Source: a virus | IMG/VR virus record: IMGVR_UViG_3300043803_000445 | Span: 1-64,000 of that record | Strand: one strand, 5' to 3' | Length of the DNA stretch: 64,000 nt | Shown here: positions 28,996 through 51,185 of the stretch, piece after piece | How the letters are laid out: every line of letters begins with the position of its first letter | Numbering within the stretch: the first letter of the stretch is position 1 | Program-made: the position numbers and the translations under genes | The notes under the pieces: model-generated | Database searches by the model: none | Seen by the model: the letters and a program-made list of their open reading frames with translations, nothing else | Told to the model about the DNA's origin: nothing

Positions 28996-31900
28996 TTAAT
29001 TTGAGTCGAATGTAAATGTAGTCATATCAAATGAAGCCCAGATAGTATCATCAAATTTTTTGTTTATACCATAAGCAAATGTATTTTCCACAGATGTATT
29101 TGCTATTCCAGCTGGGTTAAACTCCGAAATTGTTCCAGAATATAATATTTTTTGACCTGTTTGGAAATTATGATTTGGAAGATTAATTATATCATTGTCA
29201 ATATTAACAACACTATTGGAAGAACTATTAAATTCACGATAAAATAAAGGTGTTCCTTTACTAGTCAAACTAAAAGATTTAATTCCAACAACAGAATTTC
29301 CAGGAAGTCTTCTTCTAATTTTTACATTAGAAGTTTGGGTTCCGTGATTTAATTTATGTGGAAGATTCAATCTTACACTTCCAACACCAATTTCAGTAAT
29401 AACAGTATTATCTGGAATAAGTAAAGTGGAAAATCCAACATAATCACCAACATTTAAATTATCAGTAGTAAGATTTATATAATATGGATAAAAACTATCA
29501 AACAATGCAGATGTTGATGCAATTGAAATGTATTCATTCGAACCATTAAATTTATCACTTATATCATCTATCAACAAAACTTTATTTGTTTTACTTGAAA
29601 TATAAGGTTTAAGTGCTCGTCCAAAAATAGGTCCAATTACACCAACACCAGCAACGTTTGCTTCTGCTGCTCCAATATTTACCCTTTCGATAGACCCATC
29701 TTCAAATAAACTTTCTTCATCTTCTGTGATTAATGAGAAATTATTTCGGTTATAAAATGATGACAAATTATCAATATTTACAACTAAATCTAATGTGGAA
29801 TTTGCAATTCCAACTTTCAAATTTTTTGTAGAAGTAGATGAAATAAAACTAATTACATCCAAATCAGAAAATTCTTTAAATCCTGCTGGATGAATAGTAG
29901 AACGAACTGGTTCTTTCCATACATCATAAGCAATTTCACCCTTAATTGAATATGAGAATTTCTGATAATAAGAATTATCAGAAATTCTTTGTTGGTAATT
30001 ATTTAAAAATCCAATCTCATTACCAACATCATTAACTTTATCTCTTGACACTCCAAGTGATGAGTTCAAGTTAAATTTGTTGGTAAATTCAACTGTTCCA
30101 TTTAAAAGTGATTTTTCACCCTTTAATTTATTTCCAACTTCCAATTCACCTTTTGCATCAATTAATCGTAATTGATTAATATCATTATCCCATCCGTTTT
30201 CCATAACAGTTGCTGAAAATACTGAATTTCCAACATTGTCAAATCCAGTAACTTTTTCTCCAGAAATGTAACTTAAATCATCAATGAGAACCATCTCAAA
30301 TTCAGGCATATCTTTTTTATTGATGACAACTCCATATCCATAAGTATTAATATAATTACCCTCAAGATTATCTTGATTGAGATTTAAATTATCCTTTACC
30401 CCAGTCATACTAAAAGTTACAGTAAAGTTTTCTGAACTTATTCCAGTTACAGTAAAAAACTTATACCCATAATCTTTTGAGTTAAAATTATCTTTTGTCC
30501 TATCTTGCTGCCTACATTTTTCTATAAAAATTTCATCTCCAACAGCGAATGGGAATATAGTTTCAGTTTTTCCATATCCTGTTGTGATTAATGGATATAA
30601 TTGAGTATCATTTAATAATTCTAAAGTAACTGTAGAACCATCATTTGTTGCTACAATATCATCAATCTCATATCCATTAGAATTGTTTATAGGTACAATT
30701 CTCAATGGTGTTGTCAAATCATTAGTATTTTCAATAACTCTTACACCAACAATACTTCCACTTTGTAATTCTGCAGATAACTTTATCTTATCATTACCAA
30801 TAACTTTTAGTGATGGTGCAGTATTATATCCCCTTCCTCCTGTTGTTATGCCAATATAATCAATTCTTAAAATATCTTTAATTTGAACGATTGCTGGAGC
30901 ACTTAAAAATGGTGTTAATGTGATATCAGTTGGGTAATTAAAACCGTCTTTAACTCTTTCCAAATAATCAACTTTTCCTATTGTAGAAGATGATGATTTT
31001 AGAATTGCATTTTTGCCAGAAATAGTTTCGATTGAAGATATTTTTGGTAATTTTGTATATCTTTTTCCTCCAAAATTAACTTTTATTTTTGATATTGAAC
31101 CAGTTGTATTCGTGGAATTTGTATCATAAAAAATAGTAGATACTCCACTCGAAGTTGTATATAATGTATTCTCTGGTTTTGTATTTAAATTAAACTTAAA
31201 TGCGGTACTTCCAATTCCTATGATTGAATATTCATTATTAAATATGCTGGAAACAATTTTAATCCTATTATTCCCAACAACTTCTTTATCAGAAGAAATC
31301 TGGAATAATTCAGAAAAAGAACTTTCTGATGGTATTAAATTGTAATATATTTCATTTGGAACATCAGTCGTTTGAGTATTTAATTTTCTATTACCATTGT
31401 CAATATATTTAAAACTTTCAATTTCTTTAACAAAATTTGGATCTTTATACAATCTCAAATCCATCCCAGAAGCATCACTCAGATCAAAAGTTAATGAATC
31501 ACCTTTAGTTAAACTAATTGGTGGGTTTATAAGTGCTATACTGTGAATAGATGCACCAACACTTGTAAAACTAATGCAAGTTCCAACAGTTGCATCATAC
31601 AGATAATTTGACAATTTTATTTTATCTGGGTCTTGCTTTAGGATATAATAAGTTTTATTATCATCCAATCCACCAATAACAGTATTACCATTAGTATAAT
31701 AAACAACTTTATCACCAGTTTTTAATTTATTGTCAATTATAGTAATTTCATTTGTTTGTGTATTTACACCAACCGAAGAAGCATTAAAGTTAATTTTGTC
31801 TGTTGTAATTTTTCTAAGTTTAGGATCATATCTTAATTTTATTGTATTGGAAAAACTTGGATATACATTAAATTTTATTTTATCGTCTGTTTCTAATCCG

Positions 31901-37351: not shown

Positions 37352-39232
37352 TTATCTTGTATAATTTCCGTTTACGTAACTTGATGTGACCGCATATTGT
37401 GTTGCTGAAGTATTTTCACCAGACGTAATCACATCTTCCAGCACACTTACATTAAGTTTAGTTATATCTAGTTCCAAGTATATATCCTTCAACGCAAGGA
37501 CATCATTTGACTCTGGTATTGCTTCAATTTCAATACCAGCAATACTTGTGGATGATGTGAATGTGATTGTAGTTAATCTAATTTCACCTTTCATATAATC
37601 CACAGTTCCAGCATTATTGTTTACAATTACAGGGATATCATCAACCAGTTTAAAGAAAAATATAGTTCCAGTTTGATCAGTTTTTGGAATATCACTCATA
37701 TACAAAGTTCCACTTACATCTTGCACTGTAAATCCAGTTGATTTTATATTATAACCTCTGCCATCAGAATTTAATTTTTTGATATGAAATTGATTTCCAA
37801 AACAAATTTCATATGTTGCTAATTTATTAAACTCAGGTTGCAAATCCCTTCTGATTTTGATTTTAGTAATATTAGAAGTAATAGATGTACTTGTATTATC
37901 AATCAAAGAAGAAACTTTACTATATTTAAATCTACCACCAAAACTATTCAACTCAGTTGATTTACTATAGGATTCTAAAGTATTTACAACTCTCAGTTGT
38001 AAATTATTTGGATCTATTGTAGTACTTTTATCATAATAAACTGTTGTGTCTAATTCAACATACATATATTTCAAATCAATAATTTCTGGTTTAATTCCAG
38101 CAATTGAATATTGTCTTAAATCTTTTTTAATACTATCTTTTGTAATTTGTGAAAGATATTTACCATTTCTTGGTTTAATTGAAATAAAAACTTTACCGTA
38201 CTCTGGTGGATCTAATTCATCCCCACCATATGCCGTTACAGTATCTACATTTGGAAATATATATGGAATTAGACCTTTATAGTCATTTGCCGTTACTGCA
38301 CGGTATTGTGATGCATATACTCTAGGACCAAGATACTTAATGGAATCAATGGTTTCAATATCATCACCATTTTCTGACGGTTGTGTAGTAGTTAATAGAG
38401 AAATATTGTTTGTAATTGAAGTGCTATTATTATCAGTTAAAATTCCAGAAAAAGTAAAGTTTGCTGCACCATTCGCATCTTTTCCATTGGTAATGATATA
38501 ACTGATGAAAATAGTACTTCCACTAATTGGTTTTTTCCCTATAATATCATCACCAAATAAAATCTCATATTTTTCATCATCTATTTCTTGTGTTAAAAAA
38601 AGTTTTGAATCTTTATTTACTTGGAAAATATTCGAATATGATACATATTTTTCAGTAATCACACCAGTAACTTTTACACGAATTGTAGATGAATCCACAC
38701 CAGTGTTTGGAATTGTAAATCTTTGATTTACTTGTGATGCATCTACTGTATATGTTTTTGTTAAATATGAACCTTCATAGATATCAATTCCAGTAAAATT
38801 CGCATATCCATTATTATCAACTACTACTGTGATATCCTCTGGAATTGAAAAGATATAATTACCATTTTCGACAGCACCTAAAGCAACGATTCCTGCCTTT
38901 AGAGTAACTGTTTTTGAATTTAACCCTGTTGTATTAACTGTAAAACTAACTTTTGCTTTTGATGCTCTTTTGGATCTGGGAACATATCCAATATTACGTG
39001 CAAGAGAGACTACATTTTCTCGAAGAGTTGCACTATCAATAAAGGATTCGTTCACTGCCATATTTGTATTGAAGGCAGTGATATAAGAGTTATATGCTAG
39101 TATATCAATTAAACTTGAAAAATTAGAACCTTCAAAATCAAAATCCGTGAAATTACTATTCGATCTCAGATAGTCCTTTATCTGAGTACGTAAATCATTA
39201 AAATCTAGATTTGTAAAATTATTGAAGGACAT
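37352..39232 (-). CDS. 6: Baseplate wedge protein gp6
   Basis: Core wedge protein that dimerises to form the inner baseplate ring. 626 aa against 660 in T4. N-terminal NFTNLDFNDLRTQIKDYLRS, then FEGSNFSSLIDILAYNSYIT and AVNESFIDSATLRENVVSLA, are hallmark gp6/baseplate J sequences. KRASKAKVSFTV and a central GDDIIGKKPISGS follow. It overlaps gp25 by one base and is followed one base later by the giant gp7-position gene. The gp25-gp6 pairing is conserved across contractile systems. Confidence 0.95.
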   Translation of the reverse strand: MSFNNFTNLDFNDLRTQIKDYLRSNSNFTDFDFEGSNFSSLIDILAYNSYITAFNTNMAVNESFIDSATLRENVVSLARNIGYVPRSKRASKAKVSFTVNTTGLNSKTVTLKAGIVALGAVENGNYIFSIPEDITVVVDNNGYANFTGIDIYEGSYLTKTYTVDASQVNQRFTIPNTGVDSSTIRVKVTGVITEKYVSYSNIFQVNKDSKLFLTQEIDDEKYEILFGDDIIGKKPISGSTIFISYIITNGKDANGAANFTFSGILTDNNSTSITNNISLLTTTQPSENGDDIETIDSIKYLGPRVYASQYRAVTANDYKGLIPYIFPNVDTVTAYGGDELDPPEYGKVFISIKPRNGKYLSQITKDSIKKDLRQYSIAGIKPEIIDLKYMYVELDTTVYYDKSTTIDPNNLQLRVVNTLESYSKSTELNSFGGRFKYSKVSSLIDNTSTSITSNITKIKIRRDLQPEFNKLATYEICFGNQFHIKKLNSDGRGYNIKSTGFTVQDVSGTLYMSDIPKTDQTGTIFFFKLVDDIPVIVNNNAGTVDYMKGEIRLTTITFTSSTSIAGIEIEAIPESNDVLALKDIYLELDITKLNVSVLEDVITSGENTSATQYAVTSSYVNGNYTR

Positions 39233-39630
39233 TATATTCTAGTTGGTTGTAAAAGAAACTCTATATTTTGAGGAGGAAATGGAATTCCAACAATATCATA
39301 AGAAATTTTTACATTTAATTCATTTGAATCTTCTATAGATTCAACAATTACATCTCTTACTACAATTCTTGGTTCAAAGTTACTTAATACTGTTTTAATT
39401 TCTTCATCAAGTATTGTCGAAACTTCTGGTCCATTTAGTTCAAATAAAGAATTATCAACAGAGGTTCCCAATAAATTATTGAAGAACCTCTCACCAATAC
39501 GAGTTCTGACTAAGTTAATAACCGATTTTTTAATTGCATCCTCATTTTTTAAGATAAGAATATCATTCGTCACTGGATGTCTAGAAAAAGACAAACTAAT
39601 GTCCTTAAAACTTCTAGAAATACTAAGCAT
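39232..39630 (-). CDS. 25: Baseplate wedge protein gp25
   Basis: Wedge subunit that nucleates sheath assembly, of the Gp25/IraD-like family. 132 aa, the same length as T4 gp25. It has the expected NLVRTRIGERFFNNLLGTSV core, with RIGERFFNN holding the conserved Arg and Glu of the family, and a late Ile-Pro-Phe-Pro-rich end (IVGIPFPPQNIEFLL). It overlaps gp6 by one base. An ATTAAATA octamer lies 15 nt upstream. First gene of the late structural run. Confidence 0.95.
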   Translation of the reverse strand: MLSISRSFKDISLSFSRHPVTNDILILKNEDAIKKSVINLVRTRIGERFFNNLLGTSVDNSLFELNGPEVSTILDEEIKTVLSNFEPRIVVRDVIVESIEDSNELNVKISYDIVGIPFPPQNIEFLLQPTRI

Positions 39631-39974: not shown

Positions 39975-40316
39975 TTAACGATCTAACTGACGAAGTTTAT
40001 AATTTTTGGAATTAAAATACTTCAACAATTCTAGTGCAACTAATTTTGGATTTCCTTCACCACAAGTATAAACATCTATTGCAATACAACCTTCCTCAGG
40101 CCAAGTATGACAAGAAACATGACTTTCTGAGAGTGCAATCACAATTGTAAGACCTTGAGGATGAAAACAGTGCTGAAAAATATTCAAAATTGTCATTCCA
40201 GCACGTTGAATGCCACGTTCCATCACCTTCTGAAGAGCAATACCATCATTCAGAAGATTGTGTTCTACATCATAAACCTCCAAAAGAAGGTGATTGCCCA
40301 TCGAAAACTGTTTCAA
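39975..40316 (-). CDS. speD: S-adenosylmethionine decarboxylase proenzyme
   Basis: Converts S-adenosylmethionine to the aminopropyl donor used for spermidine synthesis; pyruvoyl enzyme matured by self-cleavage. 113 aa if counted from TTG at 40316, or 108 aa from ATG at 40301; no clear ribosome site decides. Cleavage pair Glu64-Ser65 lies in LSESHVSCHTWPE, followed by AIDVYTCG, the invariant AdoMetDC core (numbering from the TTG). speD is a known auxiliary gene of T4-like cyanophages, possibly serving polyamine needs for DNA packing. An AATAAATA late-type octamer is 22 nt upstream. Confidence 0.93.
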   Translation of the reverse strand: MKQFSMGNHLLLEVYDVEHNLLNDGIALQKVMERGIQRAGMTILNIFQHCFHPQGLTIVIALSESHVSCHTWPEEGCIAIDVYTCGEGNPKLVALELLKYFNSKNYKLRQLDR

Positions 40317-40346: not shown

Positions 40347-40976
40347 TTAATTTAAATTTTTAATTTCGTACATATAATGATCGGATGTTTCGATTTTTCT
40401 TTTATTTTCAACCGAATACACAGTTAAGTCAATTTCATATCCTGGATTTTTGTCGATTCTATTAAATGTCCAGGCATTATCATACCAAATAATACGATTA
40501 TTTGGATATGCATAGTAATTTCCAGTTTCTACCTTGAATAAATGAGCACATTTATGTTCAGGAGTCTCTGAAAAATTAAGATCAGTGACTCCTTTATTTT
40601 CCCATGACCAATCAAGAGTAAACATATAACTTCCAATCACCCTTTTTCCATCAGGACGAATTAATTCTGCTTGTAATCCAGCGAGACGAGCACGTTTTTG
40701 AACATCAACATACGGAGAAAAGCAGTCCCAGTACATAATATCCTCTAGAGGTTCTATTTCTGCATCTGATTTCCAACAAAAGGCGTGAAGAGGTCTACGA
40801 GTCCAATTCACGCCATTTTCAAGGAATGCTTCAAATAAAGGGACTCTTTTTTCAATACTGGCAACACAATGTACATCACATTTAGTTACTTCACCGTGAC
40901 CCTTTTTGTGATTAAAAAGAAATTCATTACGAATATAACAGGACCAATCTGGAAGACTGTGATTTAGATAAGCCAT
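40347..40976 (-). CDS. Conserved cyanophage-type protein, function unknown
   Basis: 209 aa, soluble. It contains many aromatic and polar residues (LPDWSCYIRNEFLFNHKKG, PLHAFCWKSDAEIEPLED, FTLDWSWENKG, HKCAHLF). I recognise it as a type found next to speD and structural genes in T4-like cyanophages but know no function. It has several Cys and His (CDVHC, HKCAH) that could bind metal; that is speculation. The gene upstream ends 4 nt before this start. Confidence 0.75.
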   Translation of the reverse strand: MAYLNHSLPDWSCYIRNEFLFNHKKGHGEVTKCDVHCVASIEKRVPLFEAFLENGVNWTRRPLHAFCWKSDAEIEPLEDIMYWDCFSPYVDVQKRARLAGLQAELIRPDGKRVIGSYMFTLDWSWENKGVTDLNFSETPEHKCAHLFKVETGNYYAYPNNRIIWYDNAWTFNRIDKNPGYEIDLTVYSVENKRKIETSDHYMYEIKNLN

Positions 40977-42404: not shown

Positions 42405-43145
42405 TTAATATTCAACAACAAGTCCCCAAATCTTTATATTATTACTTCTTGCATTAGAAAGATTCCTAGCAAGATCATTTATTGTTTGATTTTTATTTTT
42501 TGTTTTACTATAAACTAAGTTATAATTTTCATTTACCCATTCTCTCAAATTTTTTCCCTTCCATATTTTTCCAGTTAATGTATCCGTAATTGTATATGTC
42601 TTGCAATTTGGTTCAGATGCATTCTCAAATCTACTAATCCATCTCAAATTTGTATAATGATTGTTAAGTTTATTTCTATCAATATGATCTATCTCATTAT
42701 ATTCACAAGGATTGTCTACAAATGCTTTGGCAACTAATTGATGTATTGACCTTATAATTTGTTGATAGTTTCCATCACTATCCCAAATTGAAATATTCAC
42801 GCATTGATATTGATGCTCTGGATATCTTGGGTTGCCCCTAAAAGAAGGTTTTAAATATATTAATCCATTTTCATCAATCTCTCCGTATTTTCCAGTTCTA
42901 TCATATTTTCCAGGTCTGCGATATGCTCTTCCATCCTCAGTAATATAATATCCAGGATATTCAGTTTCTTTCATCCCTTTTGGTATTTTTACCTGGGGAT
43001 AATTATAAACTACTTTTTGTTTTGGAACTGCAATTGGCATATTCCATTGCTCTCTGGGTTTTTTCATATAAACCCACTTCCCATCCTTTTTTATATACTT
43101 AAAACCTTTCGCATTTGTCCTAATTGTTCCTTCTGAGTAATTCAT
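42405..43145 (-). CDS. HNH homing endonuclease (NUMOD4-like)
   Basis: 246 aa from the ATG at 43145. Frame is open 276 nt further upstream, but that part lies in repeat-rich intergenic DNA and codes for no domain. A NUMOD4-like segment is at about 60-120 (YPGYYITEDGRAYRRPGKY). The HNH domain is at 134-180: IHQLVAKAF, EIDHIDRNKLNN (DH at 153-154) and TNLRWISRFEN. The C-terminal part (LREWVNENYN ... SNARSN) resembles a NUMOD1-like DNA-binding helix. Likely a free-standing mobile gene. Its leader can pair with an upstream arm (see findings). Confidence 0.85.
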   Translation of the reverse strand: MNYSEGTIRTNAKGFKYIKKDGKWVYMKKPREQWNMPIAVPKQKVVYNYPQVKIPKGMKETEYPGYYITEDGRAYRRPGKYDRTGKYGEIDENGLIYLKPSFRGNPRYPEHQYQCVNISIWDSDGNYQQIIRSIHQLVAKAFVDNPCEYNEIDHIDRNKLNNHYTNLRWISRFENASEPNCKTYTITDTLTGKIWKGKNLREWVNENYNLVYSKTKNKNQTINDLARNLSNARSNNIKIWGLVVEY

Positions 43146-43373
43146 AATTTTATGTGGACCTTTTTGGAGAAATTTTTTTGCTGGAAATTTTTTTATATTT
43201 AAGTGTATTTGACTGCCAAAAGCAAGACTGTGTAGACTACAGGGACCCATTAAAATTATATACGGGGGCAACGGTTTATAATAAGAATAACAAACAACAT
43301 AAAATAACTGTCTATTATAATAAACGAACAATAACGAATACTTTATATTCATTACTGTGTTATTAGAATAACA

Positions 43374-43586
43374 AACTATATGGGGGGTGTTGCTATAACG
43401 AACGGGCACGATATAAGTCATTATACAACACTGTCAGATTCAAATACGAAACTGTATGGGGGGTGGTATAAATGACGAAGTGCTTCTAAAGTATAAGATA
43501 TGGAGACTACAAGTTTGTACACAGTTCTGTGTACAACGAATAGTATAGCACAGGACTGAAAGAATTACAAACTATATGGGGGGTGT
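43374..43586 (+). repeat. Three copies of a G6-containing word
   Basis: AACT(A/G)TATGGGGGGTG occurs at 43374, 43450 and 43570, each followed by T or G and a T/A-rich stretch. A weaker ATATACGGGGGC is at 43258-43269. Same orientation in all cases. Possible protein-binding iteron; a single G run per copy argues against an intramolecular quadruplex. Confidence 0.6.
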
Positions 43587-43758
43587 CATATAACACTACT
43601 GTTGTATTGTTATACTATAAGACGAGCATATACTTATACTGTGAGTACAACGAAGTGCTATAACGAACTGTTATGTATAACGAACTCATAGGACGAAGGA
43701 GTTTATAACACGAATAGTTTTCCACAGGGTATAACGAACTCTGTGGAATATAACGAAT
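43394..43758 (+). repeat. TATAACGAA iteron-like words
   Basis: TATAACGAAC is exact at 43394, 43659, 43676 and 43730, TATAACGAAT at 43749, and close forms (ATAACGAATA, ACAACGAATA) at 43331 and 43533. All are on the plus strand, and the last ones interleave with the TTTTCCACA boxes. Confidence 0.6.
43515..43536. repeat. 10-bp inverted repeat
   Basis: TTGTACACAG / CTGTGTACAA with a 2-nt centre. Strong cruciform or dimeric-protein site in the gene-free region; no T run follows on either strand. Confidence 0.65.
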
Positions 43759-43927
43759 AGTTTTCCACAAGTTTTCCACAGGTTTTGAATAGTTTTCCAC
43801 AGGGCAATTCTTATAAACCCTTGCAAACACTACAAATCATTATAAACCTGTGGAAAACTATTCTGTGAAAATCATTACTTTCCCCTATAGGAAATGAATG
43901 AAACCTGTGGAAAACTATTTTTCCACA
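43718..43927. repeat. Cluster of seven TTTTCCACA (DnaA-box) motifs
   Basis: Exact TTTTCCACA on the plus strand at 43718, 43761, 43772, 43793 and 43919, and on the minus strand at 43849-43857 and 43906-43914; TGTGGAATA at 43742 is one base off. Several are embedded in GAATAGTTTTCCACAGG. TTTTCCACA is the DnaA box form reported for cyanobacterial oriC. The cluster is seen directly; DnaA binding is inferred. Confidence 0.75.
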
Positions 43928-43929
43928 GG
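43904..43929. repeat. Hairpin made of two head-to-head boxes
   Basis: CCTGTGGAAAA / TTTTCCACAGG, 11-bp perfect stem with a 4-nt loop, placed at the predicted transcription start of the minus-strand promoter at 43937-43964. Confidence 0.7.
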
Positions 43930-43936
43930 CACGAGA

Positions 43937-43964
43937 CTTATAAGAATTGTCGAGATTCTGTCAA
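43937..43964 (-). promoter_or_regulatory. Sigma70-type promoter reading into the box cluster
   Basis: TTGACA at 43964-43959, 16-nt spacer, TATAAG at 43942-43937. It would transcribe leftwards through all TTTTCCACA boxes towards the HNH gene; such RNA could prime replication or remodel the region. Confidence 0.6.
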
Positions 43965-44001
43965 TATGTGTTGTGCCAGTCCTAGGAGTGTCTGTGTGCC
44001 C

Positions 44002-44030
44002 TTGACTTTTTTTGCGGTTTATGGTATAAT
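44002..44030 (+). promoter_or_regulatory. Strong plus-strand sigma70 promoter
   Basis: TTGACT, 17-nt spacer, TATAAT, with TGG before the -10 (extended -10). It is one of the closest matches to the consensus in the window and points onto a strand with no protein genes. Confidence 0.7.
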
Positions 44031-44036
44031 GCGGGC

Positions 44037-44230
44037 TTAGACAACAAGAACTAGAGGGGTTTAGAGAAGCATAAGAACAAGAACTAGAGGCATTTACATC
44101 ACATAATATAACACTATCATTATAACACAACAAAACACTCAACTATGTTTTTTAATACATTTAATTTAATTATCAATTAAAACATTCTTACATATCAAAT
44201 GATAATTATCTCTTATGCTTGAGTGTTAAT
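44037..44230 (+). ncRNA. Candidate non-coding RNA from the plus-strand promoter
   Basis: The region after the plus promoter has no open frame longer than 11 codons from an ATG. It carries two copies of AACAAGAACTAGAGG (44043-44057 and 44076-44090), a 9-bp outer inverted repeat AACACTCAA/TTGAGTGTT (44134-44142 with 44219-44227), an inner TTAATT/AATTAA hairpin (44166-44180) and a GATAATTATC palindrome (44201-44210). The 3' end is a guess. It could be a regulatory RNA, a replication primer, or antisense RNA for genes to the right. Confidence 0.35.
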
Positions 44231-44246
44231 CTCTTCCATCTGATCT

Positions 44247-44438
44247 TCATTGATTCAATGTAATCAGTTGTGATTGAATATCTTCAATCTCATTCACATC
44301 ATCATACTCTGCTAAATCTACTGGATGAAACTCATTCAAATTGATTGTATTATCAGTATAGATCGGAGCATAGAATAGTTCATACTCTTCACCTAACTTA
44401 TAAACACAACCGTGATCTTCTTTGTGTAGGATAATCAT
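44247..44438 (-). CDS. Small acidic protein
   Basis: 63 aa from ATG 44438 (MIILHKEDHGCVYKLGEEYE). The stop of the 42-aa gene upstream is followed by one base and then this ATG (TGA-A-ATG), so they are coupled; the frame extends to 44468 but inside the upstream gene. Acidic, with no recognised domain. Confidence 0.6.
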   Translation of the reverse strand: MIILHKEDHGCVYKLGEEYELFYAPIYTDNTINLNEFHPVDLAEYDDVNEIEDIQSQLITLNQ

Positions 44439-44439
44439 T

Positions 44440-44568
44440 TCAGTTTTGTTGGCAGAGTTTAATAGCATCAGTAATCGAAGTAGTCAAATACTTACAATCA
44501 CCATTGGTGTTACATACGGCATAAACTTTTTGTTGAGTGTTAATGTCGTAAGTGAAACGGATAGTCAT
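44440..44568 (-). CDS. Small protein coupled to the next gene
   Basis: 42 aa, MTIRFTYDINTQQKVYAVCN at the start, TDAIKLCQQN at the end; mixed strand-helix with three Cys. No strong ribosome site is seen. Its stop is one base from the following ATG. Function unknown. Confidence 0.5.
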   Translation of the reverse strand: MTIRFTYDINTQQKVYAVCNTNGDCKYLTTSITDAIKLCQQN

Positions 44569-49919: not shown

Positions 49920-51155
49920 TTATACACCAAGAACTTCACCTTTCACAAAGATAGTATCCACAACATTTTGAAGTTGCTTTGCAATCTTATCACCATAGTT
50001 ATTATTGACAGGAATCGTGATAGTTCCAAAGGGTTTCTTATAGAAAGCAAACTCTCCTGCTTTCATCTTACCATCTGCGATTGCTTGTCTGTCATCACGG
50101 TGCATACGAATCACACGACCAACAGTCTGTGCCATTTCAATCAATGGAAGATTGCGAAGCATAATGCAATGAGTCAAACCTTGAACGTTAATGCCTTCAC
50201 TCAAAATAGAGTAATGAAACACAATAAACTTCTTGTTTGGGTCTGCACCAAACTCACTCATCTTCTCAAAGAATACTTCACGAGACACTTTATGCTTGTC
50301 AATATAAGCACCGTGCTTGGAAGTGATGTGCATAATCGTATAACCCATATCATTGAGTTGTTGAAGCAAATCACTTTCAGTAAACATAGACCAAATGTCT
50401 TTGGTGCTTGGAGCAGCAACAAGAACTTTAGGAGCATCACAATCAGAAATCTCTGAGAGAATACCTACAACGTTTTCTGCATCTACAAATGCAGCATTTT
50501 CTTTAGTGCGAATGGTTTGTGCTTCATAAGGCACAACTTTGGGAGGAATGATGCTACCAGCATCAATCAGTTCTTGTGCAGGAATACTGATGATGTTATT
50601 TCCATAAACATCAGTATTATTCATAGACTCAGTGCTATTATTGAACTTGGGGGTTGCAGTGAAGAAATAAGCATTATCTGCAACTGATGAAGTATGTGCA
50701 ATACCAACAAAGTTGGATGGTTTCACACAATGATGTGCTTCATCAAAATACACAACATCAATTTCAATATCTGATTCATTCACCCGACCAATCGAATTAT
50801 AAGTGGTGAAGATAAACTGATGCTTACCACTTCCGATTGCAGTGTCATTGTATTCTGCAATGTCTGCTGGACGTGTAGAGGATTGATGATGAGTTTCTCC
50901 ACTATGAACGTGCATATAAGCAACATTCTGGTCTTTGAGATATGCTTCAAACTCAGAACAAAGTTGATTCGCAAGCAGAATACGAGGAGCAACAACAACA
51001 AATGTCATTGGTTCCAATGCGTTAAGAATCCTCTGACGGGCATCTTCCATCATAACAACAGTTTTACCACCACCAGTAGGAAGATAGCAAGTGCCTTTGA
51101 TAGAGTTCTGGACTGCCTTCAAAGCACGTTGTTGATAAGAAAGAAGAGTCAGCAT
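49920..51155 (-). CDS. SF2 DNA/RNA helicase (DEAH)
   Basis: 411 aa from the ATG at 51155; a TTG lies one codon earlier. Numbering here is from that TTG. Walker A LPTGGGKT is at 26-33, DEAH at 139-142 (DVVYFDEAHHC), motif III FFTATP follows, and motif VI is QTVGRVIRMHR. This is a two-RecA-domain SF2 enzyme of the type-III restriction/UvsW-like class. In T4-like phages, UvsW-type helicases act in recombination-dependent replication and origin shut-off. It is shorter than T4 UvsW (587 aa) and lacks its N-terminal part, so a direct equivalence is not claimed. Preceded by the extended -10 at 51186. Confidence 0.9.
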   Translation of the reverse strand: MLTLLSYQQRALKAVQNSIKGTCYLPTGGGKTVVMMEDARQRILNALEPMTFVVVAPRILLANQLCSEFEAYLKDQNVAYMHVHSGETHHQSSTRPADIAEYNDTAIGSGKHQFIFTTYNSIGRVNESDIEIDVVYFDEAHHCVKPSNFVGIAHTSSVADNAYFFTATPKFNNSTESMNNTDVYGNNIISIPAQELIDAGSIIPPKVVPYEAQTIRTKENAAFVDAENVVGILSEISDCDAPKVLVAAPSTKDIWSMFTESDLLQQLNDMGYTIMHITSKHGAYIDKHKVSREVFFEKMSEFGADPNKKFIVFHYSILSEGINVQGLTHCIMLRNLPLIEMAQTVGRVIRMHRDDRQAIADGKMKAGEFAFYKKPFGTITIPVNNNYGDKIAKQLQNVVDTIFVKGEVLGV

Positions 51156-51185
51156 CAATAAGTCAAATAACGTTTGTATTCATAC

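Follow-up and report, generated by a model that had tools for sequence, protein, structure and literature searches.

The gene-free locus and its features

The window analyzed here is a stretch of 64,000 nucleotides, forming part of a T4-like cyanophage genome (virus record of 64,497 bases). The preliminary description had assigned it to a T4-like phage, and homologues of gp17 (terminase), gp18 (sheath), gp6, gp25 and UvsW in the window bear this out. The nearest relatives of the phage are Synechococcus phages.

All positions given are those of the window. The whole locus is contained in an interval that open reading frame (ORF) lists show to be free of genes, flanked by an HNH endonuclease gene on one side and small minus-strand ORFs on the other. 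The gene-free kilobase noted earlier is thus confirmed, its length of ~1.1 kb depending on the inferred start of the HNH gene at ATG 43145. Genes for gp25 and a UvsW-type helicase, the latter with relatives in 418 cyanophage records, mark the ends of a larger syntenic interval. The features are listed below; flank scores refer to a position weight matrix (PWM) for the bases beside cyanobacterial boxes, described in the next section.

39232-39630, minus strand: gp25 baseplate wedge gene (phrog_261), left landmark of the syntenic interval
43146-44246, no strand: gene-free interval
43718-43726, plus strand: putative DnaA box 1, exact TTTTCCACA, flank score 5.5
43761-43769, plus strand: putative DnaA box 2, exact, flank score 3.6
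43772-43780, plus strand: putative DnaA box 3, exact, spaced 11 bp from box 2, as is also common in cyanobacterial clusters
43793-43801, plus strand: putative DnaA box 4, exact, positive flank score
43804-43848, no strand: central spacer CAATTCTTATAAACCCTTGCAAACACTACAAATCATTATAAACC, separating plus and minus boxes
43849-43857, minus strand: putative DnaA box 5, exact, positive flank score
43906-43914, minus strand: putative DnaA box 6, exact, positive flank score
43919-43927, plus strand: putative DnaA box 7, exact, positive flank score
44001-44070, plus strand: conserved promoter and leader module (model R1), 54.9 bits, E = 1.9e-15
44002-44030, plus strand: predicted sigma-70-type extended -10 promoter, TTGACT-N17-TATAAT, the -10 preceded by TG, 11 of 12 consensus positions, aligned across 31 loci
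44043-44063 and 44076-44096 (span 44043-44096), plus strand: two leader repeats AACAAGAACTAGAGGNNTTTA
44114-44213, no strand: candidate DNA-unwinding element, AT-rich, with the lowest stability of any 100-mer near the promoter (0.12% of the window)
44148-44162, plus strand: conserved element TTTTTTAATACATTT within the unwinding region, occurring once in the window
44247-44468, minus strand: small phage ORF (phrog_4138); the promoter is directed into its 3′ end
49920-51158, minus strand: UvsW-type helicase gene (phrog_16), right landmark of the syntenic interval

The HNH endonuclease gene (42405-43145) directly adjoins the candidate origin, and no HNH gene is found at this place in the annotated isolates S-SCSM2R, S-CREM1 and P-SSM7. 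Adjoining gp25 are genes for an S-adenosylmethionine decarboxylase and for a protein that matches a phage family labelled as ferredoxin (39975-40316 and 40347-40976).

An exact search of the window finds seven copies of TTTTCCACA within the 210 bp from 43718 to 43927, five on the plus and two on the minus strand, just as had been described. The single further copy in the 64 kb lies at position 29084. Dinucleotide shuffles of the window give an expectation of 2.0 copies per 64 kb, or ~0.007 per 210 bp. The chance figure of 0.002 offered previously was therefore somewhat low, but the conclusion that the cluster is non-random stands, with a Poisson tail for seven copies in 210 bp of ~1e-19. A near-box with one mismatch, TGTGGAATA, is present at ~43741. 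By inspection, the central spacer resembles those of related clusters, for example L010, L014, L017, L031, L050 and L052.

The surrounding DNA contains other repeats. ACGAA occurs 13 times on the plus strand and not at all on the minus strand between 43250 and 43950, with nine copies of AACGAA; the run (43324-43757) lies to the left of and inside the box cluster, and related loci have comparable ACGAA-rich stretches. A 44-nt repeat that ends in TATGGGGGGTG is present three times at 43346-43585, left of the boxes.

The promoter points rightward, antisense to every flanking gene, all of which run left. Thirty-one loci can be aligned across promoter and leader; the window supplied one training row of the module model, which also recovered the module in unselected loci. 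A related leader repeat, GAGACATTTA, reaches five copies in one locus (L415). Downstream, the 60-mer at 44149-44208 falls within the top 0.06% of the window for duplex instability. The AT-rich flank of the preliminary description is consequently real, but only local. The TTTTTTAATACATTT element, beginning at 44148, overlaps this unstable stretch. Of 64 related loci, 42 carry it, and wherever positions were obtained for element and module alike, the element lies 58-193 bp downstream.

Resemblance of the boxes to cyanobacterial DnaA boxes

In most cyanobacteria, the DnaA box is reported to be TTTTCCACA (PMC4674748). Clusters of at least three copies in a short span occur in 46 of 77 cyanobacterial genomes (the class of Calothrix), and the reversed pattern, used as a control, formed no clusters in the same 77 genomes. 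We trained the flank PWM on the bases beside 111 clustered boxes of 25 cyanobacterial contigs; these clusters were chosen by pattern, and hence are oriC-like rather than individually confirmed as oriC. All seven boxes of the window score positively on it, with a mean of 4.8. For the isolates, boxes at the locus score 2.0 compared with -1.3 for boxes elsewhere in the same phages (p = 7e-4), and clusters from other bacteria score 0.1. Because the preferences in flanking bases agree, the boxes look like sites of the same protein as the cyanobacterial clusters. As judged from their sequence, the boxes of the window are very probably cyanobacterial DnaA boxes.

The phage locus shares with cyanobacterial chromosomal oriC its clusters of exact TTTTCCACA, the same flank preferences and the 11-bp tandem spacing. 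Unlike oriC, it has neither dnaN nor dnaA as a neighbour; moreover it has a promoter module and leader repeats, and its boxes are optional.

Could the boxes serve instead as a DNA-structure or injection signal, the inverted copies forming hairpins? The predicted single-strand fold is strong (z = -8.3) and several marine isolates have inverted box pairs. There is also a precedent in the injection stop signal of phage T5, described as having repeats, palindromes and DnaA boxes (PMC13250531). However, the box orientations are near random with many direct repeats, and the host clusters show the same flank preferences. Two-step injection is not known for T4-like phages. We therefore consider a structural signal highly improbable.

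Conservation of the locus among relatives

Is the same arrangement found in related phages? A 2.9-kb DNA query spanning the locus gave zero matches in the phage collection, while short queries gave partial matches. To avoid selecting on the boxes themselves, we fetched contigs via a neighbouring protein, 58 of which had enough sequence. At least three boxes in 400 bp were found in 28 of the 58, at 1.2-4.8 kb from the neighbouring gene, the others having two, one or none. About a third of the contigs have one box or none, and the promoter module is retained in most of that third. The module model was run on 27 of these contigs, mostly box-poor or box-free ones; it matched 25 at E < 1e-5 and the other two at ~0.015, always antisense to the genes.

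Among isolates, 12 of 19 carry groups of TTTTCCACA inside the uvsW-gp25 interval, many with just two to four boxes at the locus. Lack of clustering in relatives had been named beforehand as grounds for rejecting the origin reading; clustering is clearly seen in these isolates and in the contigs. The module is present at this locus, as a single occurrence, in 10 of the 19 isolates. Five of the ten had been fed to the model and two were found by similarity to it; the independent recoveries, held out and unselected, are Syn9, ACG-2014d and S-RIM14. In Syn9 the module occurs once with two boxes adjoining, at 52.57-52.71 kb. P-SSM2, P-SSM3 and ACG-2014f have neither clustered boxes nor a convincing module in the uvsW-gp25 interval.

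Where boxes are clustered they are markedly exact. Across 85 distinct cluster regions there are 462 exact copies of TTTTCCACA against two expected, with few one-mismatch variants; the regions were picked for exact boxes, so that this comparison shows exactness and not frequency. The position of the boxes relative to the promoter varies: in the window they lie upstream of it, in marine isolates ~90 bp downstream of its -35. Thirty-three boxes lie near modules, a total that is partly circular, several module positions having been set from boxes; our reading relies instead on the flank scores, the box counts of the contigs and the module matches in isolates and contigs.

The E. coli datA locus is a cluster of DnaA boxes, and the phage boxes might likewise act as a sponge that titrates host DnaA and stops host initiation, lying near an origin by convenience. 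The count of exact boxes in 400 bp reaches 12 in one contig (L103), orientation is near random, as titration permits, and the boxes are optional among relatives. Yet the two to four boxes of many isolates are few at low phage copy number, and a sponge could sit anywhere, whereas the clusters recur in one interval. It also leaves the fixed neighbourhood with promoter and unwinding element unexplained; datA, by contrast, is chromosomal and not tied to such elements. Titration as the main function is in our view quite unlikely.

The locus as a candidate replication origin

The box cluster, the promoter and the easily melted DNA recur at the same genomic place in many relatives, and for this reason we favor an origin of replication. 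We put the probability that this T4-like cyanophage has its main replication origin here at roughly 0.6, and the locus is probably where related viruses begin copying their genomes, helped by a host protein. The comparative anatomy that supports an origin comprises the conserved antisense promoter, leader repeats, unwinding element, synteny, occurrence once per genome and host-type box flanks. We read the locus as a T4-type transcription-primed origin (promoter plus unwinding element) that many lineages supplement with host DnaA boxes. Since the module persists in the absence of boxes, we infer that it forms the core of the origin, and that the boxes are an added layer for opening or timing. 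Equally, the optional nature of the boxes indicates that DnaA is an accessory and not a universal initiator. The earlier suggestion of a phage origin recruiting DnaA holds up as regards the origin; the recruitment, with boxes that are not universal, is reduced to an accessory role in many lineages.

The minimal origins oriF and oriG of T4 combine a promoter with an AT-rich unwinding element within ~100 bp and work via an R-loop (PMC3016281). The cyanophage locus resembles oriF (uvsY) and oriG (gene 34) in having AT-rich DNA just downstream of a predicted promoter, and we propose R-loop priming by analogy. Replication genes are also of T4 type, with a match to the C-terminal part of gp59 in 15 of 19 cyanophage relatives. 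The promoters differ. Those of T4 are middle promoters dependent on phage MotA, with a MotA box in the -30 region, whereas the cyanophage has a host-type extended -10 promoter with a sigma-70-type -35 at that place. The leader repeats and host DnaA boxes are a further difference, the T4 review making no mention of DnaA (PMC3016281).

DnaA binding, transcription, R-loop formation and initiation at the locus may be envisaged as follows. Host RNA polymerase would start at the antisense promoter (44002-44030), and the transcript would extend rightward across the leader repeats into the unstable DNA at 44114-44213. As at T4 oriF and oriG, the transcript could form an R-loop there, giving the phage replisome a primer for leading-strand synthesis. 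Host DnaA would bind the seven boxes just upstream of the promoter, and the DnaA oligomer might help to open the adjacent DNA or hold it open, or might time the firing of the promoter. A role for DnaA as stand-in for a missing gp59 helicase loader was considered and rejected, the gp59 matches in 15 of 19 isolates arguing that these phages have a loader of their own.

The preliminary description had predicted a GC-skew switch. No clean switch is seen at the locus in six complete genomes, the detrended extremum falling 2.5-26 kb from it, with gene content as a confounder. A clean signature of a bidirectional theta origin is thus absent from these six, which is compatible with recombination-driven T4-type replication but lends the origin reading no support. 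For cyanophage Syn9, of the same phage family, Weigele et al. (2007, cited in PMC2984593) are reported to have predicted a single theta origin.

The lack of a clean skew switch would also suit a regulated noncoding RNA gene, making a strong early antisense RNA from a promoter controlled by DnaA as a transcription factor, with replication beginning elsewhere. Promoter and leader, rather than boxes, are indeed the most universal element. The predicted leader RNA, however, is unremarkable in structure (z = -1.3) and matches no Rfam family above chance level, the distance between boxes and promoter varies, and the conserved unstable DNA just downstream fits an origin better. We regard such a gene as unlikely.

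Returning to the origin, a broader proposal is that T4-like cyanophages use a single hybrid, in which a T4-style transcription-primed promoter and unwinding element are joined to a host DnaA-box array. Phage DNA synthesis would then depend on or respond to the host initiator, and hence to host growth or light state. We advance this tentatively, at somewhat less than even odds. The data suggest that a lytic phage of the T4-like kind may draw on its host's initiator, DnaA. In the literature searched, many subscription papers being outside its reach, DnaA boxes are not reported for T4-like cyanophages. These phages are abundant, and in the same literature no origin has been mapped beyond the Syn9 prediction. 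The locus is a concrete candidate, conserved and present in single copy, whose coordinates are given for cultivable isolates; this makes it directly testable where and how T4-like cyanophages start replication.

A tandem array of the same box occurs in a different kind of phage. The gut microvirus L134 (MZ089777) has 12 copies of TTTTCCACA, eleven of them as an 11-bp tandem array (record positions 1917-2074) between the pilot and capsid genes, and further microviruses were matched too. This is possibly an independent use of DnaA boxes.
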